DNA of 21,360 bases, from IMG/VR virus record IMGVR_UViG_3300033571_002526, positions 1-21,360 of that record, one strand, 5' to 3'. Shown here piece by piece: positions 604-17,859 of this stretch. A program made the position numbers and the translations under genes. This DNA is from a virus. The notes under the pieces are model-generated. The model was not told the origin of the DNA, made no database searches, and saw only the letters and a program-made list of their open reading frames with translations. The number at the start of each line of letters is the position of its first letter. Within the stretch, counting starts at the first letter, position 1.

Positions 604-642
604 AGCCGCTATTGTGGTCTAGCTGTCACTACAGCGACACTG

Positions 643-670
643 CGCCCGCCTTGCGCGGGCGTTTTTGTTT
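643..670 (+). terminator. Intrinsic terminator after a short leader (tR'-like)
   Basis: The stem CGCCCGC (643-649) pairs perfectly with GCGGGCG (655-661) across a 5-base loop and is followed by TTTTTGTTT (662-670). It lies about 33 bases downstream of the predicted start at 610, so unmodified polymerase would make a leader RNA of about 60 bases. A smaller hairpin, GCTGT (622-626) with ACAGC (631-635), precedes it. The first virion gene begins 84 bases further on, so late expression would need read-through. The remaining gap up to 753 contains only a small palindrome, GGTAATTTACC at 701-711, of unknown meaning. Confidence 0.85.
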
Positions 671-753
671 CTACGCCCGCCCCGGCACACACTGCGTATC
701 GGTAATTTACCCAGGCCGGTATAGCGGGCACCTATTCACTGGACGACCGTTTA

Positions 754-3700
754 ATGCCAGCAAGCGTATTCCACGTACTGACGGCGACGACGCCGGACGA
801 TCCGTCGTTCGAGATTCGTCCGCAAGCGCATTGGAATGCTGCGCACGCCGTTACGCTGAACCTCAGCGGGACCGACATCTCGCAGGCATTCAGCAACGCG
901 GGCAACGTCAGCTTTGCGCTGGAGACCAACGGCCGCATTACCGCGTCGGCCAACGTCACCGCCGCGCCGTCGCCGGTCAATGTCACGGCAGGCACGACGA
1001 GCGGCAATCTTCAGACGATTGCCTTCAGCAACAGTAACGGCGTCAGCTTTGGCCTGAACGGCTCAACCGTCACGGCCAGCCACAATGGCATCACGTCGCA
1101 ATCCGTTCAGACGCAGAATCTTGTGTCGGTGCTCGGCAGCACTGGCAACATCAGTTTCGCCAACAGCAATGGGATCACGTTCGGCGGCAACGCCAGTACC
1201 ATCACGGCGTCGCACAATGGCCTGACCACGGCGGCTCAGTCGGATCACAGCCACGGCAACCCGACTCTCAATCTGACGAACCTGAGCGGCACGACCGCGA
1301 GCAACAGCGCAGGATTGACGCTTTCGCTGTCGGCAGCCGCACAATCTGTCCAGACTCAGAACCTGGTCAGCGTTCAAGGCTCGACCGGCAACATCAGCTT
1401 TTCCAACTCGAACGGCATTACGTTCGGGTTTAACGCGAGCACGATCACCGCTTCGCATAACGGGTTGACGACCGCCGCGCAGTCAAACCACAGCCACGGC
1501 AACCCGACGCTTGCACTCACCAATCTGTCAGGGACGACGGCCAGTAATAGCGCCGGCCTGACGCTCTCGCTTTCTGCCGCTGCGGGGGGCGGCGGTGCAG
1601 ATGGCTACAACATCCTTGCCGCGGGCACTCAGACCGCAGGCACCGCTACGACGGTCAACTTTGCGAACAGCAATGGCGTTACGTTTGGCATGTCGGGATC
1701 GTCGCAGATCACGGCATCGCACAACGGCATAACTTCACAGACGGCGCAGACGGTCGGCATCTACGGCACGTCGAACACAACGGGCCAGTCATCCAGCAGC
1801 ACGTATGACGCGCGCTCGCTGACGATTCGCGGCTATGGCGTGCTGTCGGTCGGCAACAGCAACGGGTCCATCCTGCTGTCTACGCCGGACCCGGTTGACT
1901 TCACGCAGCTTTCGGTTGGCGCGAGCAATGTCGGCAACACGGCAGGAAATACGGGCGTTGTCACGGGCCGCCTTGTGCTGGCGGGCGGCAACAATGTCAC
2001 GCTGAGCGGCAGCACCAATGCCGGCAGCATGACGCTGACCGTTTCTGCCGCCAACCAGACCAATCAGACGCTCGGGCTGTACCACAGCAACAACACCACA
2101 GGTCAGTCCTCAAGCAGCACCGTCGATGCACGCTCGATCACGTTTGTCGGCCAGGGCAACGTGTCGGTCGGCATGTCGGCTGGCAGCGTGCTCATCAGCG
2201 GCGGTACTGCTGCGGCAGCACCTGTCCAGATCAGCGCAGGTACGACCAGCGGCAACCTGTCTAACATTGTTTTCTCGAATTCAAACAACGTCAGTTTCGG
2301 TCTGAACGGCTCGACGATCACAGCGAGCCACAACGGGCTGACCACGGCTGCGTTGTCTAACCACTCGCACGGCGACCCGCAACTCAATCTCACCAACCTG
2401 TCGGGAACGACCGCATCGAATTCGGCTGGGCTGACACTGAGCCTGTCCGCTGCGGCTCAGTCGGTGCAGACTCAAAACTTGGTGAGCGTGCAGGGATCGA
2501 CGGGCAACATCAGCTTCTCGAACTCCAACGGGATCACCTTCGGGTTCAATGCCAGCACCATCACTGCGAGCCACAATGGCCTGACGAGCCAGAGCAACCA
2601 GGCTGTCAGCGCGGCCAACGGCTCCTATGCGTTCCAGACGTTAAGCTTCAGCAACGCGAACGGCGTTTCGTTCGGGACATCGGCGGGTTCGGCCATTACG
2701 GCAAGTCACAACGGCTTGACGACTGCGGCCCTGTCCGATCACTCGCATGGAAACCCGACGCTGAATTTGACTAACCTCTCGGGGACTACGGCGAGCAACA
2801 GCGCGGGATTCACCCTGTCCCTGTCGGCCGCTGCGCCAAGTGGTGGCGGCGTTGCGGTATCGGCCAACGGATCTTCGCAGAACGCGGGCACGGTGGTTTG
2901 GAGCAACAGCAACAACGTGTCGTTCGGCATGAACGGCTCGACGATCACGGCAACGGTCACGGTTCCCGCGCAGAGCAACCAGACGGGCGGCATCTATGCG
3001 GTCGGCAATACTACTGGTCAGTCTAGCAGCAGCACTTACGATCTACGTACCCTTAGCGTTGATGGGGCTGGCCTTGTCAGTGCTGGCTGGAGCAACGGTA
3101 CTCTCCGCATTTCTGGCACTCAGTCTAACCAGGCTTTCAGCGCGTCTGGTGGTTCATCTGCATTCCAGACTCTAGGGTTTGAGAACGCCAACGGTTTCAC
3201 GTTCAGCAACGTCGGTGGTTCGGTGCGTGGCTCGTACACGGTGCCCAGCGTTACGCAGTTCTTCAGCGCGACCAACACGACGTTCAACGGGGCCAACGTT
3301 TCTGGCTCGATGACGCTGAACACCAACGGACTGCAACTGTCTCTTTCGGCCGCTGCAGGGGGCGGAGGCGTCACGCCGGTTGCCTCGGCGTCCAACGGTT
3401 CGTTCAGCTTCACGACGATTGCTTTCTCGAACGCCAACAACGTCACGTTCGGTACGTCGGCTGGCAGCATCATCACGGCCAGCGTAGCGGCTCCCGGCGC
3501 TGCGGCTGAGAACAACGCTATTGCCCTGCTTGGTGTCAACACCTCGGGCAACACTACTGCTACTGGATCGACCATCGGGTGGTCGGGTGTTAACGTCACG
3601 CTGTCCGGCACCAACAACAGCCAAGTTGTCATCAGCGCGCCCGCAACCTCGTCACTGGTCGGCGTCAGCGGCGTGTCGGTCTCGACTAATGGCAGCACGA

Positions 3701-4332
3701 TCAGCGTCTACGATAACGGAACGTTTTCTGGATATTTCGAGCCTTATCTTGATCGAGAACTTTTGGCGGCTCAGATTGGCAACGCACAGTTGTTTGTGCA
3801 GCCGATGCGGCTTAAAAATCACGTTCAGTTCAACGAGATCATCCAGCCGATCAATTTCTCGAACGCCTCAAACTCGTCGAACAGCGCAACGTTGTCACTG
3901 TTGGTGGGCTTCTACACCCGCAACGCGAGTACGTTGTCGCTGGTCACGAGCGCGTCAAGCAGCTATGCCGTTACGGCGTCTGGCACTGTTGGCAGCTACT
4001 CGATCTTCGGCGGCCCGAGACATTACCCAATCCCGTTCACGAGCACTCTCACGAAGGGCGATTACTTCATCGGGCTCTTGTCGCGCACGACCACGGGTGG
4101 CGGTGCTGGCATGACATGGAGCAACTTCGTTGCTACCAACATCAACAGCGCCTACTCGGGCCGGTTCTCGTCAGCCAACAATGCGACGAACCAGTTTGTC
4201 ATGGGTCAAGGCTCGTATGCCACGACGACGACGGCCATTCCGTCCAGCATTGCGTTGTCTCAGATCAACGGTTCTGCAGCCGCCAACTTGCGGCCTGTCG
4301 TATACAAACTTGTCAGCGGCGATTTGAACTAA
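754..4332 (+). CDS. Repeat-rich tail fibre / receptor-binding protein
   Basis: The protein has 1192 residues and is extremely rich in Ser, Asn, Thr and Gly. The N-terminus (about 1-45) has RPQAHWNAAHAVT, a motif frequent at the start of phage fibre proteins (RPsxWNAxH), probably the virion-attachment end. Residues about 70-985 are beta-strand repeats such as NSNGVSFGLNGSTITASHNG, QSVQTQNLVSV...GSTGNISF, HSHGNPTLNLTNLSGTTASN and NTTGQSSSSTYDARSL, separated by glycine linkers (AAAGGGG). From about residue 990 the sequence changes to a non-repetitive domain of about 200 residues (starting near SGYFEPYLDRELLAAQ, including GGPRHYPIPF), which I infer to be the receptor-binding tip. There are no cysteines in the repeats and no signal peptide. 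The start has only a weak ribosome binding site (GGA at 741-743). The repeats are near-identical in protein but strongly divergent in codons. It is the first gene behind the leader terminator. A tail fibre is the likely role; a trimeric adhesin-like decoration is the alternative. Confidence 0.8.
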   Translation: MPASVFHVLTATTPDDPSFEIRPQAHWNAAHAVTLNLSGTDISQAFSNAGNVSFALETNGRITASANVTAAPSPVNVTAGTTSGNLQTIAFSNSNGVSFGLNGSTVTASHNGITSQSVQTQNLVSVLGSTGNISFANSNGITFGGNASTITASHNGLTTAAQSDHSHGNPTLNLTNLSGTTASNSAGLTLSLSAAAQSVQTQNLVSVQGSTGNISFSNSNGITFGFNASTITASHNGLTTAAQSNHSHGNPTLALTNLSGTTASNSAGLTLSLSAAAGGGGADGYNILAAGTQTAGTATTVNFANSNGVTFGMSGSSQITASHNGITSQTAQTVGIYGTSNTTGQSSSSTYDARSLTIRGYGVLSVGNSNGSILLSTPDPVDFTQLSVGASNVGNTAGNTGVVTGRLVLAGGNNVTLSGSTNAGSMTLTVSAANQTNQTLGLYHSNNTTGQSSSSTVDARSITFVGQGNVSVGMSAGSVLISGGTAAAAPVQISAGTTSGNLSNIVFSNSNNVSFGLNGSTITASHNGLTTAALSNHSHGDPQLNLTNLSGTTASNSAGLTLSLSAAAQSVQTQNLVSVQGSTGNISFSNSNGITFGFNASTITASHNGLTSQSNQAVSAANGSYAFQTLSFSNANGVSFGTSAGSAITASHNGLTTAALSDHSHGNPTLNLTNLSGTTASNSAGFTLSLSAAAPSGGGVAVSANGSSQNAGTVVWSNSNNVSFGMNGSTITATVTVPAQSNQTGGIYAVGNTTGQSSSSTYDLRTLSVDGAGLVSAGWSNGTLRISGTQSNQAFSASGGSSAFQTLGFENANGFTFSNVGGSVRGSYTVPSVTQFFSATNTTFNGANVSGSMTLNTNGLQLSLSAAAGGGGVTPVASASNGSFSFTTIAFSNANNVTFGTSAGSIITASVAAPGAAAENNAIALLGVNTSGNTTATGSTIGWSGVNVTLSGTNNSQVVISAPATSSLVGVSGVSVSTNGSTISVYDNGTFSGYFEPYLDRELLAAQIGNAQLFVQPMRLKNHVQFNEIIQPINFSNASNSSNSATLSLLVGFYTRNASTLSLVTSASSSYAVTASGTVGSYSIFGGPRHYPIPFTSTLTKGDYFIGLLSRTTTGGGAGMTWSNFVATNINSAYSGRFSSANNATNQFVMGQGSYATTTTAIPSSIALSQINGSAAANLRPVVYKLVSGDLN
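1099..1224 (+). repeat. Tail-fibre repeat, Q-block copy 1 (42 codons)
   Basis: This encodes QSVQTQNLVSV through ITASHNGL. It differs from the copies at 1342-1467 and 2458-2583 at three residues (Leu for Gln, Ala for Ser, Gly for Phe) and at many synonymous positions. Confidence 0.9.
1246..1341 (+). repeat. Tail-fibre repeat, HSHG-block copy 1 (32 codons)
   Basis: This encodes HSHGNPTLNLTNLSG followed by TTASNSAGLTLSLSAAA. It is the first of four copies of this block. A glycine linker or another block follows each copy. Confidence 0.9.
1342..1467 (+). repeat. Tail-fibre repeat, Q-block copy 2 (42 codons)
   Basis: It encodes exactly the same 42 residues as 2458-2583, yet 27 of the 42 codons differ, all synonymously (29 base differences), including one Ser TCG/AGC switch. 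Confidence 0.95.
1489..1584 (+). repeat. Tail-fibre repeat, HSHG-block copy 2 (32 codons)
   Basis: This is the second copy of the HSHGNPTL...SLSAAA block, with Ala replacing Asn in NPTLNL and many synonymous differences. It is followed by a GGGG linker. Confidence 0.9.
2362..2457 (+). repeat. Tail-fibre repeat, HSHG-block copy 3 (32 codons)
   Basis: This is the third copy (HSHGDPQLNLTNLSG...). It uses TCG/TCC serine codons at several positions where copies 1 and 2 use AGC. Q-block copy 3 follows directly. Confidence 0.9.
2458..2583 (+). repeat. Tail-fibre repeat, Q-block copy 3 (42 codons)
   Basis: Its protein sequence is identical to copy 2 (1342-1467) but the DNA is only about 77% identical. 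All 29 mismatches are silent. Confidence 0.95.
2740..2835 (+). repeat. Tail-fibre repeat, HSHG-block copy 4 (32 codons)
   Basis: This is the fourth copy, with one Leu to Phe change (AGFTLSLSAAA) and again synonymous divergence from the other three. A PSGGG linker follows. Confidence 0.9.
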
Positions 4333-5804
4333 TGGCTCTCTATCGCCAAGGCTCAAGTCTGTTGCGATTCGCCGGAGGTGGGCTGTTGTCGTCTGGAAGT
4401 GGCGGCAGCAGCGAAGTCACTCCGGTGCTCTATGCTTCACGCACCTCAGGCCCGGCTCCGCTTGCGGTCTATTTCGACGGTCTTGCCACTACCGCTGTCG
4501 ATGTCAGCGATCCTTGGCGAAACCTCGGGTACTACTTCGACTTTGACGACACTGGCGCTGGAACATGGACTAATAACGGTCGCTCAAAAAACACTGAGTA
4601 TGGTGGGCCGATTGCAGGCCATGTGTTCGAAACGCCTGGCACATATGAAGTGCTCATGTCCGCGCGTCGCTCGGACGGCGAGTGGGCGCAAGACAGTATA
4701 GAGATAACCGTGACTGACCCGGACACGGTGTTCTCAGGCACCAACACTATTTGTATCTCAACCGACACTAACACAACTGGGGCGCCTGCTGGCGCAACGC
4801 TGCTGACCAACCAGACGAGTTGGCCGACATGGCAGAGTAACCGGCGTTACTTGATTCGTGCCGGAAGGGATTATGAGTCGTTCGGCGGCATCGATGTTCC
4901 GCGCGGCGTGTCGAACGTCCAGATCGCTGCGTTCGGCAGTGGCGCTGATCCGATAGTCGCGTCAGCAACAGCGGCCTCTAGCGGCCCATACTCGGATTTC
5001 GGTCTTGCGTATCCAGAGAACGTTGTGTTCTCAGATTTGGACTGCACGGGCATTGTAGCTGGGACTGGGCCATATCGGAATGTTTTGTGGTTGCGGTGCA
5101 AGTGGAACGGCACGGCTGAACCCGGCGAAGGCATCCAGTTCGCTTACGACGCGGGATATAACGCGACAAGCGGCAACGACCAGTTGTTCTGGCCGGAGTG
5201 CATCTTTTTCGTGGACTGCGGACCTTCGGTAGCAGGGGAAAACGCGGGACTCTATGGGCATGGGATCGGTTACATGGTCATGGGGCACACAGCTCCGCGT
5301 GGCCCGCAGCACACCATGCGTCCATACAACATGCGCAAGTCTCTGATCGCGCATTGCGACTTTACAACGTTCGGTGGAAACCTCGTCATCAAGATGCAGG
5401 GTATCGGGACCAACTTTAGTGATTTTGGACGGTACCTACACCAAGACAGCGGCGGTGACCCATACGCTTACTACAATATCATTCGCGCTAATCAAATTCG
5501 TGACGACGACAACGATGGCATATGGGCTATTGCCGTGGCCCCTGAAAATGATGAAATAGGGTCAGGCGCGCAGTTGGTGCGAGACATCATCACCGAGGGA
5601 AACACGTATCACGGAAGTTGGATTAGCTCTTACGTGCGTGCGGGTAATCGCCTGACTCGTCGTGGGGATGGCGGGGCTGGTTACAATGCTGCCGCCAACG
5701 CCAGCAATTTCAACGTGAGACTTCCGGGTGGGGCGGGTGGTGCGAATGATGGCCCGTACTACGACGACGAAGCCGCTATCACGACTCAGCCGCCGTCGAG
5801 GTAA
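4332..5804 (+). CDS. Tailspike: PKD domain plus parallel beta-helix
   Basis: The protein has 490 residues. The ATG at 4332 overlaps the fibre stop by one base (TAATG); the frame is open further upstream, but those codons are antisense-quality sequence inside the fibre gene. A short N-terminal Gly/Ser-rich segment (1-28) may anchor it to the virion. Residues about 30-128 look like a PKD immunoglobulin-like domain: SGPAPLAVYFDG, YYFDFDD, then GHVFETPGTYEV and SIEITVTD. From about 150 to the end, strands and turns of the type IRAGRDYESFGGIDVPRG, VVFSDLDCTGI and DIITEGNTYHGSW suggest a right-handed parallel beta-helix of the pectate-lyase type common in phage tailspikes. The likely role is binding or cleaving a host surface polysaccharide. 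No catalytic residues can be assigned by eye. Base composition is less GC-rich than in the head genes, consistent with an exchangeable receptor-binding cassette. Confidence 0.75.
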   Translation: MALYRQGSSLLRFAGGGLLSSGSGGSSEVTPVLYASRTSGPAPLAVYFDGLATTAVDVSDPWRNLGYYFDFDDTGAGTWTNNGRSKNTEYGGPIAGHVFETPGTYEVLMSARRSDGEWAQDSIEITVTDPDTVFSGTNTICISTDTNTTGAPAGATLLTNQTSWPTWQSNRRYLIRAGRDYESFGGIDVPRGVSNVQIAAFGSGADPIVASATAASSGPYSDFGLAYPENVVFSDLDCTGIVAGTGPYRNVLWLRCKWNGTAEPGEGIQFAYDAGYNATSGNDQLFWPECIFFVDCGPSVAGENAGLYGHGIGYMVMGHTAPRGPQHTMRPYNMRKSLIAHCDFTTFGGNLVIKMQGIGTNFSDFGRYLHQDSGGDPYAYYNIIRANQIRDDDNDGIWAIAVAPENDEIGSGAQLVRDIITEGNTYHGSWISSYVRAGNRLTRRGDGGAGYNAAANASNFNVRLPGGAGGANDGPYYDDEAAITTQPPSR

Positions 5805-8288: not shown

Positions 8289-8579
8289 ATGGCCGCACCT
8301 TTAGGCAATAAACACGCTGCAAAAGACCGCTATGTTCGGAAGGCGCTGCTAGACGTAGCGGCCGAGTTCAGCCCGGACCCGACAAAACCCGAGCTGGCGT
8401 TCCAAAGTGTAGCGCGCGTAGTGTGGAATTTTGCGCTCGGTGGAGAGCGGTGGGCAATTGAGTTCCTGCGCGACACGATGGACGGAAAACCGAAACAGCA
8501 GATGGACGTGGATTATCAAGGTCCGCCCATCCTGACTGGCATGACCGTTACGCTAGTCAAACCAGAAGATGCACGTTAA
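8289..8579 (+). CDS. Putative terminase small subunit
   Basis: The protein has 96 residues. It starts MAAPLGNKHAAKDRYVRKAL, a basic opening (APxGNKxAAK-xRxVRxAL) that I know from small podovirus packaging proteins, then a helical middle (ELAFQSVARVVWNFALGGER) and AIEFLRDTMDGKPKQQMD, matching the IxxRxDGKP motif of that group. Small terminase subunits bind the packaging initiation site and hand DNA to the large subunit. The gene overlaps the large terminase by 11 bases, the usual order. It is short for a small terminase, so a DNA-binding accessory factor is an alternative. Its start has only a weak ribosome binding site. Confidence 0.6.
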   Translation: MAAPLGNKHAAKDRYVRKALLDVAAEFSPDPTKPELAFQSVARVVWNFALGGERWAIEFLRDTMDGKPKQQMDVDYQGPPILTGMTVTLVKPEDAR

Positions 8580-9831
8580 GGCGGAAATCCCTGAAAAGCT
8601 CGCGCCGCTGTTTGAGCCGCACCGATACAAGGTGCTTTACGGCGGGCGAGGCTCCGCGAAGTCGTGGAGCGTTGCGCGGGTTGCGTTACTGCAAAGCCTG
8701 AAGGAGCCGCTGCGCTGGTTATGCGCTCGTGAGATTCAAAAGACAATCGCAGAGTCGGTTCACCGTGTTCTGGCGGATCAAATCAACTTGCTGGGGCTGG
8801 AAGAATACTTCCAGGTGCAAGAAACGATCATTCGTGGGGTAAACGGATCAGAGTTCGTATTTGCGGGTATTCGCGGTCTGGATGTTGCCAAGATAAAGTC
8901 ATTTGAGGGCGTTGACCGCTGCTGGGTTGAGGAGGCGCAGGTCGTTACGCGCAAGTCGTGGGACATCCTGTTGCCGACCATCCGCAAGCCGGGGTCTGAA
9001 ATCTGGATCACGTTCAACCCGGAGCTGGACAGCGACGAGACCTATGCGAGATTCGTGACTTCGCCGCCTAGCGAGGCGGTTGTCATTGAAATGAACTGGC
9101 GGGATAACCCGTGGTTTCCCGAAGAACTGCGCAAGCTAAAAGACGACTGGTTCAAGCGCGACCCAGAAGGCGCGGAGACGATTTGGGAGGGCAAGTGTCG
9201 CCCGGCTGTTGAGGGCGCGATCTACCGGCGCGAGATCGAGGCGATGAATCGGGATCGGCGGTTGCGGCCTGTGCCGTATGACCCGCTGCTGAAGGTTCAC
9301 ACGATTTGGGATTTGGGCTGGAATGACAAGACCTCGATTATCTGCGCGCAGCGTGTGGGCGGAGAACTTCGCGTGATTGATTTCGTCGAAGATTCGCATA
9401 CCGGCTTGCCTGAATACGTGCAGGAACTGAAGTCGCGGAAATGGAATTGGGGCACTGACTTCTTGCCGCATGACGGCGCAAGCGGTCGGCTCGAGTCCTC
9501 CGGGTTGTCCGCAGAGGACATACTGCGTCGCCTGGGGCGCACGGTGCAGATCATCCCGCGCGGCGATGTGGAGGCCGGAATCAAGGCAGCGCGCATCACG
9601 TTCGCGCGGTGTTACTTCGACGTGGATCGCTGCACGCCGCTGGTCAATCACTTAAAGCGATACCGGCGACAGATCAACAGTGTGACAGGTGAGGCGGGAG
9701 GGCCGCTGCACGATGAGCATAGCCACGCGGCAGACGCTTTCCGTTATTTGTCGCAGATCGCTGATCGCATGACAAATGACGACGACAGCTGGAACAAGCC
9801 GCTGAAGTACGCAAATTTAGGGGTTGTTTAA
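8569..9831 (+). CDS. terL: Terminase large subunit (PBSX/Terminase_3-like)
   Basis: The protein has 420 residues, normal for this family. It is the ATP-driven DNA-packaging motor and headful or site-specific nuclease. The ATPase domain has Walker A GGRGSAKS (25-32), Walker B CWVEEA (118-123) with the catalytic Glu, and coupling motif ITFNP (147-151). The C-terminal RNase H-like nuclease domain shows the three acidic positions: D248 in TIWDLGWNDK, D302 in LPHDGAS and D389 in HSHAADAFRYL. All key residues are present, so it should be active. It overlaps the putative small subunit and abuts the portal gene without a spacer, consistent with co-translation. Confidence 0.95.
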   Translation: MHVKAEIPEKLAPLFEPHRYKVLYGGRGSAKSWSVARVALLQSLKEPLRWLCAREIQKTIAESVHRVLADQINLLGLEEYFQVQETIIRGVNGSEFVFAGIRGLDVAKIKSFEGVDRCWVEEAQVVTRKSWDILLPTIRKPGSEIWITFNPELDSDETYARFVTSPPSEAVVIEMNWRDNPWFPEELRKLKDDWFKRDPEGAETIWEGKCRPAVEGAIYRREIEAMNRDRRLRPVPYDPLLKVHTIWDLGWNDKTSIICAQRVGGELRVIDFVEDSHTGLPEYVQELKSRKWNWGTDFLPHDGASGRLESSGLSAEDILRRLGRTVQIIPRGDVEAGIKAARITFARCYFDVDRCTPLVNHLKRYRRQINSVTGEAGGPLHDEHSHAADAFRYLSQIADRMTNDDDSWNKPLKYANLGVV

Positions 9832-12126
9832 ATGGCCGATGATTTCGACGACCTGCTGAAAGCCATCGACGCAGCAGAAGAAAACGCCTACGGATCGGAT
9901 ACCGACTCGCAGCTTGCGTCTGAGCGTTCTGCGGCCATCGACGCCTTTCTCGGCCGCAATACCTTGCCCGCCCCGGACGGACGCTCGCAGGTCGTAGACC
10001 GCACCGTTTATGAAACGGTGCAATGGATCATGCCGTCACTCACGTCTATTTTTGCCAATGGCGATGATGTGGTGGAATTGCCACCACTCGGCCCAGACGA
10101 CGAGCCAGCGTCTAAGCAGGAAGCGGCGTATCTGAATTTCATTGTTTTGCAGAAAAACAACTGGTATCAGACATTCACGACGGCGGCAAAAGATGCGCTG
10201 ATTACCAAGGCTGGATACTTGTACGTATGTCGTGAGAAACGCACGCAGGTTGAGGTCGAAAAGTACGAGCGGCAAAGCGCGGACGGCCTCGCGTTGATCG
10301 TTACGGACGGTGCCGAGGTCGTCAACCTGAACGAATACCCGGACCCGGACGCGCAGCCGCAGGTGGACCCGGCAACCGGCATGCCGATGCCGCCGCCGAT
10401 GCTGTACGACGTTGAGATTCGACGCACGAAAGACGAACAGGTTTACCGCATCAAAGCGCTGCCGCCCGAGCGGGTGAAAGTGTCGGAAAACTGCCAGACG
10501 GTGCAGGTACGCGAGTCGGATTACTTCGAGTATTTTGATTTCATCACGATCAGCGAACTGCGCTCGATGGGCTATGACGTTCCAGACGACATCGGGGACG
10601 ATGGCGACGCAGACAGCGATACCGAAGAAGATGGCGCGCGGGATATTTACGGTGAATCTAGGACGGGCGAGGGCGAGGTAGAACCGTCCATGCGTCGCGT
10701 CAAAGTGCGCTGGGTCTGGATACGACACGACTACGATCAGGACGGGATTGCAGAAATGCAATACGTCGTCGTGGTCGGGCGCAAAGTGCTCTATCGCGAG
10801 GAAATCAACGGCGTTCCCGTGGGTGTGCTGTGCGCGGACCCGTTGCCGCATCGTCACGTCGGGCTGTCCATTGCCGATGTCACGGCAGATATTCAGTCGA
10901 TCAAAACGGCGATTTTGCGGCAGGGTCTCGACAACCTGTACCTGACCAACAATATGCGGATGGCCGCTGACCCGTCGATGGTAAACCTTGACGACCTCCT
11001 GAGCAGCCGTCCGGGTGGCGTTATTCGAATGAAGGGTGGCGTATTCGGTCAGCATCTAGCGCCGATTCAGGTGCCGTTCGTGTTCCCGCAGGCAATGGAA
11101 GCCTTCGGGTTCATGGAGCAGGTGAACGAGGGGCGCACTGGCGTTAATCGGTACTTTCAGGGAACGGACCAGAATGCACTGAATCGGACCGCGTCCGGCG
11201 TCGCACAACTGACGACGATGGCTGCGCAGCGAGTGCAGCAAATTGCCCGCAACTTCGCGAACGGCATTGAATCCGTGTTTGCGGTGCTGCACGAACTAGT
11301 GCTGAAGGGCGGCCATCAAACGGACGTTATCAAGCTGCGCGGCCAGTGGGTGCAGGTTGATCCGTCAACGTGGCGCAAGCGAACCGATTTCCGCATCAGC
11401 GTCGGATATGCGTCCGGCAACAAGGACGCAATGGTGCAGAAACTGATGATGATTGCCAATTTCCAGAAGGAAGCGATCATGGGCGGGCTTCCTATTGTGA
11501 ATGCACGCAATGTCTATGAAACGGCCATCGAATTGACGAAGGTGAGCGACTTCGCCGCCCCGGAGCGATTCTGGCAAGACCCGGAGCAGGCACCGCCGCC
11601 TGGTCCGCCGCGGCCTGATCCGACGGCGCTGGCGACCGAACAGCTAAAGGCGCAGACGCAGGTGCAGACCAAAGCGGCGGAACTGGAAACTGAAAAGCAG
11701 ACCACGGCCGCAAAAATCGACCTTGAAAAGTACAAGGCCGATCTGGACGCGCAAACGCGCTTGACCATTGAGCAATTCAAGGCGCAGCAGCAGCGCGAGG
11801 TCGAGCAGTTCCGTGCCGAGCACAGCGTCGGCATGGAGCAGTTCAAGGGCACGCAAGCCATGCAGATCGAGCGGGCGCGTGCTGCGGCCAAAAACGAGCC
11901 GGCCGTCGAAATGGGCCAGCAGGTGCAGGCGCTGGCGCAAAACCTCGAATCAGCCATTGATTCGCTACGCGACGCGCTGCAAACCGTTCTGACGGCCCGC
12001 CGAACCATTCGTCGCGGCCCAGACGGCAAGGCAGAGGGAGTGGACGTTGTGACGCCTGACGGCCAGGTGATCGCGTCGCAGTCTGTCGTGCGCGGCCCGG
12101 ATGGTCGCGCAGTGGGCACCGCATGA
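9832..12126 (+). CDS. Portal protein, P22-like podovirus type
   Basis: The protein has 764 residues, in the P22-like size range. It forms the dodecameric ring through which DNA is packaged and to which the adaptor and tail attach. An acidic N-terminus (MADDFDDLLKAIDAAEENAY) leads to VVDRTVYETVQWIMPSLTSI, characteristic of this portal group, then FVFPQAMEAFGFMEQVNEG and TGVNRYFQGTDQNALNRTAS in the wing/stem region. A Pro-rich hinge (PPPGPPRPDPT, about 586-597) is followed by a long charged helix (about 600-690: QLKAQTQVQTKAAELETEKQ onward), fitting the coiled-coil barrel of P22-type portals. The tail contains a duplicated short motif, RRGPDGKAEGV and VRGPDGRAVGT. Its ATG abuts the terminase stop, with AGGGG 8 bases upstream. 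Confidence 0.92.
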   Translation: MADDFDDLLKAIDAAEENAYGSDTDSQLASERSAAIDAFLGRNTLPAPDGRSQVVDRTVYETVQWIMPSLTSIFANGDDVVELPPLGPDDEPASKQEAAYLNFIVLQKNNWYQTFTTAAKDALITKAGYLYVCREKRTQVEVEKYERQSADGLALIVTDGAEVVNLNEYPDPDAQPQVDPATGMPMPPPMLYDVEIRRTKDEQVYRIKALPPERVKVSENCQTVQVRESDYFEYFDFITISELRSMGYDVPDDIGDDGDADSDTEEDGARDIYGESRTGEGEVEPSMRRVKVRWVWIRHDYDQDGIAEMQYVVVVGRKVLYREEINGVPVGVLCADPLPHRHVGLSIADVTADIQSIKTAILRQGLDNLYLTNNMRMAADPSMVNLDDLLSSRPGGVIRMKGGVFGQHLAPIQVPFVFPQAMEAFGFMEQVNEGRTGVNRYFQGTDQNALNRTASGVAQLTTMAAQRVQQIARNFANGIESVFAVLHELVLKGGHQTDVIKLRGQWVQVDPSTWRKRTDFRISVGYASGNKDAMVQKLMMIANFQKEAIMGGLPIVNARNVYETAIELTKVSDFAAPERFWQDPEQAPPPGPPRPDPTALATEQLKAQTQVQTKAAELETEKQTTAAKIDLEKYKADLDAQTRLTIEQFKAQQQREVEQFRAEHSVGMEQFKGTQAMQIERARAAAKNEPAVEMGQQVQALAQNLESAIDSLRDALQTVLTARRTIRRGPDGKAEGVDVVTPDGQVIASQSVVRGPDGRAVGTA

Positions 12127-12422
12127 GCCTAACCGATGAAATGGATCGCGGGAACAAAGCCCGCAAGCTGCTAGACGATCCGCTACTGACCGAAGCGTGG
12201 GAGCAGGTAGAACGGACAATTACGGAAGCGTGGGCCAATGCGCCAATCCGCGACCGTGATGGGCAGCACGAACTGAAGTTGATGTTGAAAGCCCTGCGCG
12301 ACGTGCGGGGCTGGCTCGAACAAACCGTAACAGACGGCAAAATCGCCGCTGCGGAATTCGAGCGTCTAAACCGTCGCGAAACAACGCCCGCAGAGATTCG
12401 GGCACTGAGGAAGTATGGATAA
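12123..12422 (+). CDS. Small helical protein between portal and scaffold
   Basis: The protein has 99 residues and starts inside the portal stop (ATGA overlap), so translation is coupled. The sequence is predicted fully alpha-helical and highly charged: DRGNKARKLLDDPLLTEAWE, then VERTITEAWANAPIRDRDGQ and LKLMLKALRDVRGWLEQTVT. Small helical proteins at this place in podovirus genomes occur repeatedly, but their function is not generally known to me. A head-assembly accessory role is inferred from position only. No catalytic motif is visible. Confidence 0.7.
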   Translation: MSLTDEMDRGNKARKLLDDPLLTEAWEQVERTITEAWANAPIRDRDGQHELKLMLKALRDVRGWLEQTVTDGKIAAAEFERLNRRETTPAEIRALRKYG

Positions 12423-13371
12423 CATGAGCGAACAATCGCCGGCACCGGCGAACTCGCAGCCGTCACTGGAGCAGCGGATCGGAAGCATCTTTGACCAGAC
12501 GCCCGACAACGCGCCCAAGCAGCCAGTGGCAGCAGAACCGCAGACCGATGACACCGCAGTAGAGACAGAAGCGACAAGCGAAAATGTTTCACGTGAAACA
12601 GAATCGCCCGCCGATTCCTACGAGGAAATCGAGTTTGAGGGAGAGCGTTTGCAGATTCCGAAGGGCAGCAAGCTGAAAGACGCTTTGCTGCGCCAGCAGG
12701 ACTACACACGCAAGACGCAGGAAGTCGCTGAACAGCGGCGGCTGTACGAGCAGTCCGTCGAGCAGGCGCGGCTGTGGCAACTGGATCGCGAATTTACGCA
12801 ATCCATCCAACCGCAGCAGGTGTTGCTCGCGCAGTTCGATGCCGCGCTGAAGCAGTACGAAGGCGTTAATTGGGCGCAGATGAGCACGGATGAAATCGTC
12901 CGTACCAAGCTCGAAATGGACCGCCTCAAGGAAGGACGGGACCAAGTTTCCAAAGACATTGACGGCAAGAAGGCGCAGTTTCAGCAGGCGATCTCGCAAA
13001 ACACGGAAAAGCTGGTACGACAGGGGCAGGAAATGCTGTCCAAGTCGATTCCCGGCTGGAACGAATCGGTTGCGAAGGAAGTCATGCAGCACGCTATCTC
13101 GGATGGGTACACCGAAGCGGAACTTCAGACGGTACTCGATCCACGCAACGTCACGACGCTTTGGAAAGCCATGCAGTACGACAAGCTGCAACAAAAAGCA
13201 AAAACCACGGTTCAGGAAGCTAAGTCTGTCAAGACGACGCCGACTAATCCGATGGACCCTAAAACAAAGGACTACCTGAACTACAGGAAGCAATTGCAGA
13301 AGGCACCGCCTAACAGCGATGTCCGCAAGAAACTTGTGCAGGATCGGGTAGCCTCGATCTTTGGTGGATAA
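12415..13371 (+). CDS. Scaffolding protein
   Basis: The protein has 318 residues from ATG 12415; ATG 12424 (MSEQSPAP) is also possible because GAGGAAG at 12407-12413 is spaced ambiguously for both. It lies directly before the capsid gene, as scaffolds do, and would direct procapsid assembly and then leave. The N-terminal 75 residues are acidic and low-complexity; then EIEFEGERLQIPKGSKLKDA begins an ordered part, and from about 95 to 215 long charged helices (QQDYTRKTQEVAEQRRLYEQ, RTKLEMDRLKEGRDQ) suggest coiled coil. The C-terminus is basic (KTTPTNPMDPKTKDYLNYRK), typical for scaffold-coat binding. Both ends carry a similar motif: QRIGSIFD near residue 20 and DRVASIFGG at the C-terminus. A perfect parS palindrome lies in the disordered segment at codons 57-62. 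Confidence 0.85.
   Translation: MDNMSEQSPAPANSQPSLEQRIGSIFDQTPDNAPKQPVAAEPQTDDTAVETEATSENVSRETESPADSYEEIEFEGERLQIPKGSKLKDALLRQQDYTRKTQEVAEQRRLYEQSVEQARLWQLDREFTQSIQPQQVLLAQFDAALKQYEGVNWAQMSTDEIVRTKLEMDRLKEGRDQVSKDIDGKKAQFQQAISQNTEKLVRQGQEMLSKSIPGWNESVAKEVMQHAISDGYTEAELQTVLDPRNVTTLWKAMQYDKLQQKAKTTVQEAKSVKTTPTNPMDPKTKDYLNYRKQLQKAPPNSDVRKKLVQDRVASIFGG
12585..12600. promoter_or_regulatory. parS: parS-type ParB-binding site
   Basis: TGTTTCACGTGAAACA is a perfect 16-base palindrome that equals the bacterial chromosomal parS consensus, the centromere bound by ParB. It lies in the coding sequence of the scaffold protein, in codons for Asn-Val-Ser-Arg-Glu-Thr within a low-complexity acidic segment where amino-acid constraint should be weak. 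The sequence match is direct; function as a ParB site in this phage is inference. Confidence 0.75.
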
Positions 13372-13376
13372 AGACA

Positions 13377-14390
13377 ATGGCTCAGATTTCCGGTACTACC
13401 TGGACAAACTCCATCGCGAATTCCCTCACGATGGCGACCAACATCCGCGAGGATGTCGAGTCGGTCATTTGGGAACTCGACCCGATGGATACGTGGGCGC
13501 TGACCAACCTTGACAAGGTGGACGCATCCAACACTTATCACGAATGGCTCAGCGATAACCTTGCTTCCGCCGCGTCAAACATTGTCCGCGAAGGCGATGA
13601 TGCGACGTTCTCGACCGCCGCGCCTGCGCAGCGATATGGCAACTACTGCCAGATTCTTAACAAGACCTTCATCGTGTCCGACACGCTCGAAGCAGTGGAC
13701 AAGGTGGGGCGTCGCACTGAGACTGGCCGGCTTGGCACCAAGCTGCTGAAGGAACTGAAGCGGGACTGGGAATTTGCTCTCGTCCGCAATCAGGCGTCGT
13801 CCGCAGGCGGTGCGGCCACGGGTCGCGCGATGGCTGGTATGGAGTCGTGGATTGCGGGTCCGACCGCCACTACGGCGAACACGGCCGCGAACGTCGTCAC
13901 TGCGACGACCAACTCAACGACCTCGACCACGCCGGGATTCTCGGGCGGCACGGTAGCGGCCCCGACTGACGGCACGACGGGCGCGCTTACAGAGGGTTCG
14001 CTGAAGGCGGCCCTTCAGGGTGCGTGGGAAGATGGCGGCGATCCGCGCGTTATCCTTGTCGGCGCGCGGCAGAAAAACGTCATTGATGCCTTCACTGGCA
14101 TCGCGACGCGATTCGTTGACAACTCGCGCACGCAGCAGGCGTCCATAATCGGCGCGGCGAATATGTACGTAACGTCGTACGGACAGCACGTCATCACGCT
14201 CAGCCGGTACGTTCGCGATACGGTCGTGCTCTGCCTTGACCCGGATTATTGGGCGATTGCGTTCCTGCGCCGGCCGCAGACGAAGGACCTTGCCAAGACG
14301 GGCGACGCGACCAAGAAGCTGATCGTTTCGGAAGGCGCGCTGGTGTGCCGTAATCCGAGCGCCTCGGCTAAGGTCGTGGGCTGCGCCTAA
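13377..14390 (+). CDS. Major capsid protein, SU10/DUF5309 type (HK97 fold)
   Basis: The protein has 337 residues, with GGTGGA 8-13 bases before the ATG. The family signature is clear: SIANSLTMATNIREDVESVI and WELDPMDTWAL (the IxxLDPxDTP-like motif), YHEWLSDNLASAASNIVREG, QILNKTFIVSDTLEAVDKVG, RDWEFALVRNQASS, then ALTEGSLKAALQGAWEDGGD with PRVILVGARQKN, and the C-terminal DYWAIAFLRRPQTKDLAKTG. This matches the SU10-like HK97-fold coat family. A Thr/Ser/Ala-rich insertion at about residues 160-205 (ATTANTAANVVTATTNSTTS) interrupts the usual pattern and is probably surface-exposed. It follows the scaffold by five bases and is followed by a strong hairpin. Confidence 0.93.
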   Translation: MAQISGTTWTNSIANSLTMATNIREDVESVIWELDPMDTWALTNLDKVDASNTYHEWLSDNLASAASNIVREGDDATFSTAAPAQRYGNYCQILNKTFIVSDTLEAVDKVGRRTETGRLGTKLLKELKRDWEFALVRNQASSAGGAATGRAMAGMESWIAGPTATTANTAANVVTATTNSTTSTTPGFSGGTVAAPTDGTTGALTEGSLKAALQGAWEDGGDPRVILVGARQKNVIDAFTGIATRFVDNSRTQQASIIGAANMYVTSYGQHVITLSRYVRDTVVLCLDPDYWAIAFLRRPQTKDLAKTGDATKKLIVSEGALVCRNPSASAKVVGCA

Positions 14391-14393
14391 GCC

Positions 14394-15038
14394 GTGATTG
14401 TGATTGTCGGTCACGGCCCCTCGATCCTTAGTGGTCGTGGGGCCGTGATCGACTCTCACACGGTGGTCAGGCTCAAGCGGGGACTAGCTAGAAAATTCGA
14501 CGATAAGCAAGACCCGCTCAATTGGGGGACGCGCACGGACTACCTCTTTGCGCGTTCCCTTATTTTTCAGGATTACGCAAACGGGGCCGAATTCTGGCTT
14601 TACCGCGATGAACGTGCGGATTGGTTCAAGACATTCGCTCCGAAAAACCCGAAGCCGAGCACCGGCTTATGTGCCGTGTTCGCTGCCGTGGAACGCTTCA
14701 AGCCCGACGTTATCGGACTGATTGGATACGACCGGCTGCTGTATCCAGGCGCGGAAACGCCGCGATGGGACGGCAGACATCATTGCTGGGGGCATGACGA
14801 ATTCGCCGAGCATCGCGCCCTAACCGCGCTCGGCGTGCGAATCGTGGATTTGGCTAAAGAGGATTTCAATGCCGACATTTCTGGATTACGACCCGCTGCG
14901 GGGTCTGGAACAGTGGCAAGACTCGACATACGGGGACAACCGCTTGCAAATCCATTACCGGCAGGATGTCGAGCCGGTGCTCGAGCTCGCAAAAACCGAG
15001 AGGATCAACGGGCTGACAGACAAGGGCATCAAGAATGA
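14394..15038 (+). CDS. GT29 sialyltransferase-like glycosyltransferase with overprinted C-terminus
   Basis: The protein has 214 residues with a GTG start three bases after the capsid stop. The N-terminus VIVIVGHGPSILSGRG, then AVIDSHTVVRLKRG, matches the VVGNGPSL...G..ID.h..VvRfN pattern of GT29-like proteins. GTRTDYLFARS (45-55), PSTGLCAVFAAVERF (88-102) resembling sialylmotif S, VIGLIGYD (106-113) and a late HDEFAEHRALTALGVRIVDL agree. A bacterial GT29-like enzyme would be expected to transfer sialic acid or a related sugar from a CMP donor; the real donor is unknown. Residues after about 158 (NADISGLRPAAGSG... to the end) overlap the next gene by 170 bases in another frame, look unstructured and Arg/Ala-rich, and probably arose by loss of the original stop codon. 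Confidence 0.68.
   Translation: MIVIVGHGPSILSGRGAVIDSHTVVRLKRGLARKFDDKQDPLNWGTRTDYLFARSLIFQDYANGAEFWLYRDERADWFKTFAPKNPKPSTGLCAVFAAVERFKPDVIGLIGYDRLLYPGAETPRWDGRHHCWGHDEFAEHRALTALGVRIVDLAKEDFNADISGLRPAAGSGTVARLDIRGQPLANPLPAGCRAGARARKNREDQRADRQGHQE
14407..14452. promoter_or_regulatory. Long perfect-stem hairpin just after the capsid gene
   Basis: TCGGTCACGGCCCC (14407-14420) pairs with GGGGCCGTGATCGA (14439-14452): 14 base pairs with a single G-T wobble and an 18-base loop. It starts 17 bases after the capsid stop and lies within the first codons of the GT29-like gene. No T run follows, so it is not a classic terminator. It could stabilise the upstream capsid mRNA, limit read-through, or lower translation of the glycosyltransferase. 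Confidence 0.55.
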
Positions 15039-15204
15039 TATGTGGCTGTATGCGCGTATCCCGCCCGTGGTGATTCTGAAACTGAAATACGAATACGGGG
15101 TAGACATCTTCAAGAAAGACCACATGAAGAAAGCGTTTGAGATCATCAACCGCGACTTCCCGTATTTGAAAACGACAAAGAAGCGGCATACGGTGAAAGA
15201 CTAA
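14869..15204 (+). CDS. Conserved phage protein of the capsid region, unknown function
   Basis: The protein has 111 residues. The ribosome binding site AAAGAGGA at 14856-14863 sits 5 bases before the ATG, supporting this start inside the 3' part of the GT29-like gene. The pattern FLDYDPLRGLEQWQDSTYGD, then LQIHYRQDVEPVLELAKTER, GIKNDMWLYARIPPVVILKL, EYGVDIFKKDHMKKAFEIIN and RDFPYLKTTKKR is one I have seen in many podovirus head regions: a short beta N-terminus, then QDVEPxLxxxK, ARIPxxVxxxL and a C-terminal helix plus F/YLKT. Its role is not established to my knowledge. It overlaps the following gene by one base (TAATG). Coding confidence is high because the family-like pattern is intact. Confidence 0.78.
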   Translation: MPTFLDYDPLRGLEQWQDSTYGDNRLQIHYRQDVEPVLELAKTERINGLTDKGIKNDMWLYARIPPVVILKLKYEYGVDIFKKDHMKKAFEIINRDFPYLKTTKKRHTVKD

Positions 15205-16619
15205 TGGCACTGGTAGCCGAAATCGGAGCCGGCAAGACGCTGCCAGAATCTGACAGCGGAACGCACCTGGTCGTGCAGAAAGCAATGCAATTGCAGGAAG
15301 CGGACAAGGTGCCGGAGTCGATTGAACTGCTCGAAAAGCATCTGCGAAAGTATCCAGACGACGCGCACGCATTGACGGCGCTATCTAACGGGTTAAAGAA
15401 AGTCGGGCGCGTGGCGCTCTCGTATTACGTCGCGAAACACTCGGTCAGTCTGCGGCCTGAGCGGCCGGAAACGTGGTGCGCGGTCGGGCACTCAGCGCAG
15501 AACCTGTGGCGATTCGATGAGGCCGTATCGGCGTATCGCAAGGCGATACAGCGCGCCAAGACTGACAAGCAGCGCGCTTTGTACCTGAACAACATGGGAT
15601 CGTTGTATCTCGATCACGGTCAGTTTAAGAAGGCCGAGCAGCCACTACAGGAGGCGTTAAAGATTGATCCGAGCGATCCGATGGCACTTCACAATTACGG
15701 GCTGTCGCTGTTGGCAAGACGCCAGTGGGCAGATGGCTGGAAGCATTACAGCGCATCGGTCGGAAGCAAGGCACGGATGCGGATAAAGTACCGCAAAGAC
15801 CCGGAGGAGCCGGAATGGGACGGCACGCCAGGGCAAAAGGTTGTCGTCTATGGCGAGCAGGGGCTAGGCGATGAAATTTGCGCCGCATCAATGATCCCCG
15901 ACGCCGCCGCAGTGGCGTCCGTGGTCATGGATTGCGACCATCGACTAGCAGGGCTGTTCCGTCGTTCTTTCCCGAACGCAAAGGTATACGGGACAAGATG
16001 GAAAAAGGAAGTTGTATGGGACGCGGAGGATCGCGAACCGGACGCATCGCTTCCAGCGTTTGAGCTGGGCAAATTCTTTCGTAACGCGGACGCGGACTTT
16101 CCCGGCACGCCCTATCTGGTCGCAGACCCTGAGCGGGTGTTGATGTGGCGGGCATTGTGGGCCAGCAAGGGCAAGCCGACTATCGGAATCGCCTGGACTG
16201 GCGGAACGTGGCACAACGCCGCCGCTTACCGGCAACTGCCGCTAACGGAGTGGCAGCCGATTTTCGATGCTGTGGATGCGACGTGGGTATCACTGCAATA
16301 CAAGGATGCGGCGGCCGAGCTCAAGGGAGCGCCTGTCGTGCAGTACCCGCACGCGACATTGACGGCGGACTACGACGACACGGCGGCACTGGTGGCGTCC
16401 TGCGATCTGGTCATCGGAATGCAAACCAGTGTCTGTCATCTGGCCGGTGCTCTGGGTGTGCCGGTATGGACATTGATTCCGTCCACGTCACAGTGGCGAT
16501 ACGGCGAATCAGGCGATACCGTGCCTTGGTATCAATCAATGCGGCTATACCGGCAGACAAAGGACGGATGGGGGCCGGCCGTTCAGCGGATCGCGGAGGC
16601 ATTGCGTGCTCATTTCTGA
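15204..16619 (+). CDS. TPR-glycosyltransferase fusion (GT9/heptosyltransferase-like GT-B domain)
   Basis: The protein has 471 residues. Residues about 20-190 form tetratricopeptide repeats, e.g. PESIELLEKHLRKYPDDAHA, FDEAVSAYRKAIQRAKTDKQ, and YLNNMGSLYLDHGQFKKAEQ with LQEALKIDPSDPMALHNYGL. From about 210 a GT-B domain begins: VVVYGEQGLGDEICAASMIP is the N-terminal glycine loop, IGIAWTGG the start of the second Rossmann half, and DDTAALVASCDLVIGMQTSV plus HLAGALGVPVWTLIPSTSQW the nucleotide-sugar-binding C-terminal motif of heptosyltransferase-like enzymes. TPR plus GT-B resembles the domain logic of O-GlcNAc transferases, where TPRs hold a protein acceptor, so protein glycosylation is a reasonable inference. 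It overlaps both neighbours (1 base upstream, 14 downstream), so it is firmly in the head operon. Confidence 0.85.
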   Translation: MALVAEIGAGKTLPESDSGTHLVVQKAMQLQEADKVPESIELLEKHLRKYPDDAHALTALSNGLKKVGRVALSYYVAKHSVSLRPERPETWCAVGHSAQNLWRFDEAVSAYRKAIQRAKTDKQRALYLNNMGSLYLDHGQFKKAEQPLQEALKIDPSDPMALHNYGLSLLARRQWADGWKHYSASVGSKARMRIKYRKDPEEPEWDGTPGQKVVVYGEQGLGDEICAASMIPDAAAVASVVMDCDHRLAGLFRRSFPNAKVYGTRWKKEVVWDAEDREPDASLPAFELGKFFRNADADFPGTPYLVADPERVLMWRALWASKGKPTIGIAWTGGTWHNAAAYRQLPLTEWQPIFDAVDATWVSLQYKDAAAELKGAPVVQYPHATLTADYDDTAALVASCDLVIGMQTSVCHLAGALGVPVWTLIPSTSQWRYGESGDTVPWYQSMRLYRQTKDGWGPAVQRIAEALRAHF

Positions 16620-17160
16620 CGAATACCGGGCGCAGCAGGCGCATTTGCACGAAACGACGAACTACGGCACGGCGTCGATCAAGTACGCCAAGCTGGTAAC
16701 GGAAATCATCGACCGGCTGGAAGTGCGGCACCTGCTCGATTACGGTGCGGGTAAGCAGATGAACTTGGGCAAGCACATTCGCCCAAAGCACGCGCTGAAA
16801 TATCAGGCGTATGAGCCGGCAGTGCCAGAAATGGCGGGTTCGCCGGTACCGGCCGAAATGGTCGCCTGTATTGACGTACTGGAACACATCGAGCCGGACC
16901 TTTTGGACAACGTGCTGGATCATCTGGCGTCGCTGACCGAGGCTGTATGTTTCCTGACAGTTCACTGCGGGCCGGCGTCAAAGGTGTTGCCCGATGGCCG
17001 AAACGCGCATTTGATTCAGGAGCCAATGGATTGGTGGTTGCCAAAGCTGACGAGCCGATGGGACATCCAGACCTGTCAGCGCATTCACGATCAGGCGTTT
17101 TACTTCATCGGCTACGCACGGCCTCGGGTTGAGGCGGTCGATGGCAGCAAGATGATTTAA
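16606..17160 (+). CDS. SAM-dependent methyltransferase-like protein
   Basis: The protein has 184 residues. The GTG start has a textbook GGAGG at 16595-16599, six bases upstream, and overlaps the previous gene by 14 bases. After an N-terminal helix (DEYRAQQAHLHETTNYGTAS), HLLDYGAGKQMNLGKHI gives a motif I-like glycine loop, KYQAYEPAVPEMAG the acidic strand, and VACIDVLEHIEPDLLDNVLD the D-x-LEHI motif of class I methyltransferases. AVCFLTVHCGPASKVLPDGR and NAHLIQEPMDWWLPKL are typical of a subgroup found in phage glycan clusters. It lies between two glycosyltransferases, so a sugar or modified protein is the likely substrate. It could instead be a non-catalytic family member. Confidence 0.72.
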   Translation: MLISDEYRAQQAHLHETTNYGTASIKYAKLVTEIIDRLEVRHLLDYGAGKQMNLGKHIRPKHALKYQAYEPAVPEMAGSPVPAEMVACIDVLEHIEPDLLDNVLDHLASLTEAVCFLTVHCGPASKVLPDGRNAHLIQEPMDWWLPKLTSRWDIQTCQRIHDQAFYFIGYARPRVEAVDGSKMI

Positions 17161-17163
17161 GCA

Positions 17164-17859
17164 ATGTCTGCCATTCCTGTATTTGTTGGCTACGACCCTA
17201 GAGAAGCGGCTGCGTATCACGTTTTCTGCCAATCGGTCATTGAGAAGGCATCGCGACCCATCGCGTTTTATCCGCTACATCGGCAGATGCTGGCGAACTT
17301 CGATGGGCAGCGCGACGGGACCAATGCATTCATTTTCTCGCGCTATCTGGTGCCTTACCTGAGCGATTTTCGAGGGTGGGCGATTTTCTGCGATGGCGAC
17401 ATGGCCTGTGTCGATGACATCGCGGAGCTGTGGGACCAGCGCGACGCGATGTATTTTAACAAAGCAGTAGCGGTAGTGCAGCACGACTACCGCACAAAAC
17501 ACCGACGCAAGTACATCGGCACGCCGATAGAGAACGACAACATTGACTACCCGCGTAAAAACTGGTCAAGCGTGATGCTGTGGAACAGCGGGCACTACGC
17601 AAACCGCATCCTGACACCTGACTTTGTTCGTGAAACGACGGGACAGTTCCTGCATCGGTTCGAGTGGTTACGGGATGAGCAGATCGGCAGTCTGCCGCGC
17701 GAGTGGAACATGCTTGCCGGCGAACAGGTGCTGGACGATCCGAAGCTGATTCATTACACGCTCGGCGTGCCTGGCATACCGAACTATGCGCAGTGCGATG
17801 GGGCCGAGCATTGGCACGCAGCACGGCGGCGTGCCATGCACATCATAGGGGTTGACTAA
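17164..17859 (+). CDS. GT8-like glycosyltransferase
   Basis: The protein has 231 residues. It opens IPVFVGYDPREAAAYHVFCQ (nucleotide-binding first strand and helix), then FIFSRYLVPYLSDFRGWAIF, with CDGDM at residues 76-80 as the DxD metal-binding motif (D77, D79). KNWSSVMLWNSGHYANRILT and GSLPREWNMLAGEQ follow, the acceptor-side motifs of GT-A family 8-like enzymes, and HYTLGVPGIPNY near the end supplies the late conserved His. The intact DxD suggests activity. It closes the glycan gene island, and its stop overlaps the adaptor gene by one base, so it is co-expressed with virion genes. The ribosome binding site is weak, suggesting coupling to the upstream gene. Confidence 0.82.
   Translation: MSAIPVFVGYDPREAAAYHVFCQSVIEKASRPIAFYPLHRQMLANFDGQRDGTNAFIFSRYLVPYLSDFRGWAIFCDGDMACVDDIAELWDQRDAMYFNKAVAVVQHDYRTKHRRKYIGTPIENDNIDYPRKNWSSVMLWNSGHYANRILTPDFVRETTGQFLHRFEWLRDEQIGSLPREWNMLAGEQVLDDPKLIHYTLGVPGIPNYAQCDGAEHWHAARRRAMHIIGVD

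Follow-up and report, generated by a model that had tools for sequence, protein, structure and literature searches.

A 16-bp sequence inside the head scaffolding gene of a podophage is well supported as a parS site by comparison with the bacterial consensus and with other phages, and it is very probably used by the phage rather than accidental. We consider it likely that these 16 bases are a loading site for the chromosomal ParB of the host, such that the phage would borrow the host ParABS system, a judgment that refers mostly to the recruitment of ParB. The DNA that we analyzed, referred to here as the window, is a linear IMG/VR fragment of 21,360 bp and represents about half of a genome, larger relatives having roughly 40 kb. 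The scaffold gene is flanked by the portal and major capsid genes, and the relevant features are as follows.

12585..12600, no strand assigned: parS-type site TGTTTCACGTGAAACA, a perfect 16-bp palindrome across which the scaffold frame reads (Asn)VSRET
12415..13371, + strand: head scaffolding protein gene that carries the parS-type site (PHROG phrog_3927, 1.3e-27, and 9013)
12529..12633, + strand: acidic, low-complexity, hypervariable scaffold linker that contains the site (N-termini of relatives compared by eye)
8569..9831, + strand: terminase large subunit, for context (phrog_3717)
9832..12126, + strand: portal protein, for context (phrog_1216)
13377..14390, + strand: major capsid protein, the query for the family search (phrog_1328; relatives 43-79% identical)
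16305..16349, + strand: loop within a TPR/GT9-like gene (15204-16619) at which the parS motif is found, in different reading frames, in other members of the family

The window site is a 16-bp palindrome matching the chromosomal parS consensus, which is given as TGTTTCACGTGAAACA in a paper that cites the original survey (Livny et al. 2007, cited in PMC10197239). The initial annotation had described a perfect palindromic copy of this consensus inside the scaffold gene, and we confirmed it at 12585-12600. It is the sole match in a scan of the 21,360-bp window even when up to three mismatches are allowed, while dinucleotide shuffles of the window give 0.09 matches at three mismatches. Given the base composition, the exact 16-mer is expected 1.9e-6 times in the window, compared to 5e-6 in the initial annotation. 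In the scaffold ORF the site falls within the peptide ENVSRET, and the probability of the 16-mer given NVSRET and the codon usage of the window is 5.5e-5. As had been noted, the Ser TCA and Thr ACA codons of the site are not preferred ones, accounting for 10.5% of Ser codons and 10.2% of Thr codons in the window, respectively. The surrounding linker is acidic and of low complexity, and in relatives this linker is hypervariable and acidic. On sequence grounds, it is very unlikely that the 16-mer in the window is a product of either chance or the encoded peptide.

Relatives were gathered using the capsid protein, which yielded 29 related contigs, and using a 12-member alignment, which yielded 80; a search with the portal protein added little to this capsid-based family. 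The check proposed in the initial annotation, whether scaffold genes of relatives conserve the 16 bases, had an unexpected outcome. None of the scaffold genes that we read contains the site, their acidic N-terminal linker is hypervariable, and neither the bases nor the peptide are kept there. Many relatives do possess a parS-type site, but at other places that span several genes and reading frames. Scans of whole contigs allowing up to three mismatches gave matches for 7 of 29 and 10 of 50 contigs, nearly all with a single match, compared to 2 of 29 and 3 of 50 contigs for a reversed-pattern control. In 76 contigs of relatives, which total 1.06 Mb, the strict core GTTNCACGTGNAAC occurs 12 times, while 179 permuted palindromes of this core average 0.045 sites in the same contigs, with a maximum of 2. 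Allowing one mismatch to GTTNCACGTGNAAC gives 26 sites in 23 contigs, compared to a permuted mean of 2.35 and a maximum of 17. A set of 840 permuted 16-mers was also run against the first 26 contigs with up to three mismatches; the real word has 8 matches there versus a mean of 0.84, and a count of 8 is reached by 8 of the 840 words, counting the real one.

Across the family, the sites are located in the scaffold gene, in the TPR/GT loop, in a virion protein, near the gp143/terminase region, and at the end of a small ORF. Certain of them reflect common descent, namely those of G128 and G111 and those of G018 and G119, the latter pair lying in a virion protein where both have the peptide FTWNG, and the TPR-loop sites may be partly shared by descent as well. 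Since some sites were inherited in common, the 12 strict-core sites represent about 9 independent ones at most. Many relatives, among them G002, G026, G103 and several large ones, have no recognizable site, and neither do eight distant cultured relatives identified through the capsid protein (phiM5, tf, phiGT1, RHph_N2, Venkman, ppBeUSDA76-2, PaP3 and Cronobacter Ss1). Therefore, the site is dispensable in the family.

The TPR/GT9-like gene, which sits downstream of the capsid gene, contains a hypervariable loop whose length varies across relatives. In the window, this loop is short and lacks the motif. Among 52 distinct loops, 7 contain the motif within one mismatch, and permuted motifs average 0.006. 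The peptide encoded over the motif is FHVEH in G093 and G129, FHVKH in G111/G128 and G025, and LHVEH in L322/L325, and a second reading frame is used in G107 (APRGT) and G109 (VSRGA), each of which has one mismatch to the core. Retention of a DNA word despite a change of frame points to selection on the DNA and is hard to explain otherwise. There are signs that selection acts on DNA rather than on peptide in this family, and the sequence is kept beyond coding need in the family, not at the exact position that it occupies in the window. An arrangement like that of the window is found in Microbacterium phage Quhwah, where VSRET lies in the acidic linker of an unrelated protein. The protein that hosts this linker (L394:806-1645) is an HTH protein.

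The motif is also widespread beyond this family. The exact 16-mer is present in at least 120 IMG/VR stretches, compared to 1 stretch with a control palindrome matched in composition. It is found in 286 of 50,697 phage records, a count of records rather than of independent origins that includes some 'Listeria phage LM 4-11-1' contigs which are possibly host DNA, and two control palindromes are found in 0 and 0. Those Listeria contigs (OR846716 and similar) have up to four parS sites and may be host chromosome. In the same 50,697 records, TGTTTCACGTGGAACA occurs in 147 and its control in 0, and TGTTCCACGTGGAACA occurs in 58, most often in Pseudomonas phages. Carriers among the matches listed include Listeria phages P100 and A511, Herelleviridae of Lactobacillus, phi29-like phages, Gordonia, Arthrobacter and Microbacterium phages, microviruses, and inoviruses. 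Within the phi29-like phages the sites are differently placed and differ in number, with four in phi29, two in B103, three in Chedec 11, two in Voltaire, and one site plus a one-off in Athos. Together, the relatives and the wider phage record strongly support the initial reading of the 16-mer as a functional type of parS rather than a coding accident. The benefits that the initial annotation proposed (tethering, positioning, protection and condensation of the phage DNA) would be possible uses of such a site. To our knowledge, enterobacterial hosts lack this ParABS, and the presence of TGTTCCACGTGGAACA in Klebsiella RaK2-type jumbo phages is therefore a point against strict matching of site and host. 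Two further groups of phages were noted for the number or the placement of their sites. Bajarodino virus 6 (L397, PQ006149), a 5.9-kb inovirus from rodent faeces, has six perfect parS cores within 636-5642, and its sister records bajarodino virus 3, 7 and 69 have five or six sites each. In Pseudomonas phage phiPsa374 and its relatives, and in Vibrio phage phi 3, the direct terminal repeats contain parS-type sites, which places these at a genome end.

Two known systems suggest how such a site might be used. Spo0J, the host ParB, is reported to entrap the phi29 genome in spores, according to a citing paper (Meijer et al. 2005, cited in PMC9437464). The window family, with no parB found in 79 related contigs, resembles phi29, a phage without parB, in carrying parS-type sites, of which phi29 has four, and in phi29 it is the host ParB that handles the phage chromosome. 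It differs in that phi29 is small, protein-primed and has a spore-forming host, whereas the window family comprises larger podophages that usually have one site whose position moves. In the second system, the parS mimics of SGI1 recruit the ParB of IncC plasmids, stabilize SGI1 and destabilize the helper plasmid (PMC10954446). As with SGI1, the window phage would be a mobile element using the partition system of another replicon; however, SGI1 copies a plasmid parS, while the window phage carries the chromosomal consensus.

If the 16-mer works as a host ParB loading site, host ParB would recognize it on the phage DNA after injection, close as a CTP clamp, and slide along the phage DNA. The phage genome would thereby become ParB-coated cargo of the host ParA/ParB machinery, and possibly also of SMC. 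The most likely gain would be that the phage genome is positioned and inherited while lysis is delayed, as in a carrier state or in starved or dividing cells. We favor positioning and inheritance because Spo0J is reported to trap the phi29 genome in spores and because SGI1 is stabilized by its parS mimics. Taken alone, this segregation benefit has somewhat less than an even chance of being correct.

ParB might instead be recruited for a different benefit. Copies of the site could titrate host ParB as decoys, or ParB and SMC could condense, shield, or re-organize the DNA before packaging. A single site per genome becomes many per cell once the genome is replicated, phages that lack an obvious persistent phase, Listeria P100 and the microviruses among them, carry sites too, and the destabilization of a helper plasmid by the SGI1 mimics is in line with such an effect. 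On the other hand, a decoy would favor several sites, and in the window family there is a single site in almost every case. We regard this explanation as possible, albeit unlikely.

It is improbable that the resemblance to parS is superficial and that the site instead serves as an operator, bound by some other protein such as a Noc-like protein or a transcription factor of phage or host. In favor of this, the motif often falls between genes in other phages (63 of 146 exact sites among the IMG/VR matches listed), but the family sites are found inside various structural genes and in intergenic stretches alike, which is unlike an operator. Chromosomal parS varies at positions 4 and 11 and at the outer bases, and the variation of the phage sites at these positions matches that pattern. 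The window site is identical to chromosomal parS over all 16 bases, and relatives show the usual T/C and A/G variation. Chromosomal parS sites cluster near the origin, whereas the window site is on a phage.

Phage-plasmids such as P1, N15, and the RedRock-like mycobacteriophages encode ParA and ParB together with element-specific sites. The window phage would resemble them in having a partition-type site on a phage genome, and because the window covers about half the length seen in its larger relatives, a ParB or ParABS of its own could lie in the other half. A search for the ParB_N domain covered 79 contigs of relatives and gave no matches; many of these contigs are partial, and large ones of 37-48 kb are among them. 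A phage parB, which had been raised as something to look for, was not found in these contigs, and a phage-borne ParABS is not indicated. In contrast to phage-plasmids, no ParA or ParB of its own was found in what was searched of the window family, and we judge this explanation to be very improbable. ParB_N is also absent from 48 of 50 IMG/VR carriers, with one of the two matches above the cut-off, and from 12 of 13 named phages, the exception being Quhwah, with a gene at 49574 of its record. Least credible of all is that ENVSRET merely happens to use these codons, since although the sequence is compatible with the peptide and is missing from this position in relatives, the probabilities given above are minute, the motif recurs in other genes and frames of relatives, and it is enriched over controls in both collections.

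Returning to host ParB loading, hijacking of a host or helper ParABS is a known kind of behavior, which would here be at work in a phage family not known for it. On parS in lytic phages, the open-licence literature gave nothing beyond phi29 and Spo0J, which was reached via a citing paper, and no report of the wider phage pattern was found in the open-licence papers searched. We see an even chance that unrelated phages of ParB-bearing hosts (window-like podophages, Herelleviridae of Listeria and Lactobacillus, phi29-like phages, actinophages, gokushoviruses and inoviruses) each gained a position-free parS to ride host ParABS/SMC, which would be a general, convergent strategy extending beyond spore entrapment. 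Should loading of host ParB take place on these phages, the centromere system of bacteria would be a common handle for phage genomes, with a bearing on carrier states, on phage inheritance without integration, and on DNA condensation during infection.

Binding by host ParB, the presence of ParABS in the host, and the gain to the phage are what we infer from these comparisons. A host with ParABS is plausible; a search for the capsid protein in genome contigs returned only three weak or small MAG contigs. Integrase type and presence differ among family members, indicating that lifestyle varies within the family. Tyrosine integrases are found in G002, G003, G026 and G105 and serine integrases in G012 and G004, with none found in the others; L245:14611-16086 is an example locus. 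We considered an anticorrelation between parS and integrase, which looked clean at first, was weakened by the serine integrase of G004, and is not significant: a strict site is present in 4 of 7 genomes lacking an over-threshold integrase and in 1 of 6 genomes that have one (P = 0.18, one-sided Fisher test), a comparison that leaves out G119, which has a weak integrase match and two sites.

Two minor observations concern the window itself. The hexamer CACGTG occurs once, compared to 6.6 expected, and the single copy is that of the parS-type site at 12585-12600. It is scarce in some relatives too, with 0 in G003 versus 5.0 expected, and its depletion in the window and these relatives perhaps reflects restriction-site avoidance. 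Between the capsid and tail genes, 14394-17859 forms a cassette conserved in relatives in which the TPR/GT9-like protein has methyltransferase-like and glycosyltransferase-like neighbors, possibly for surface or virion glycan modification.
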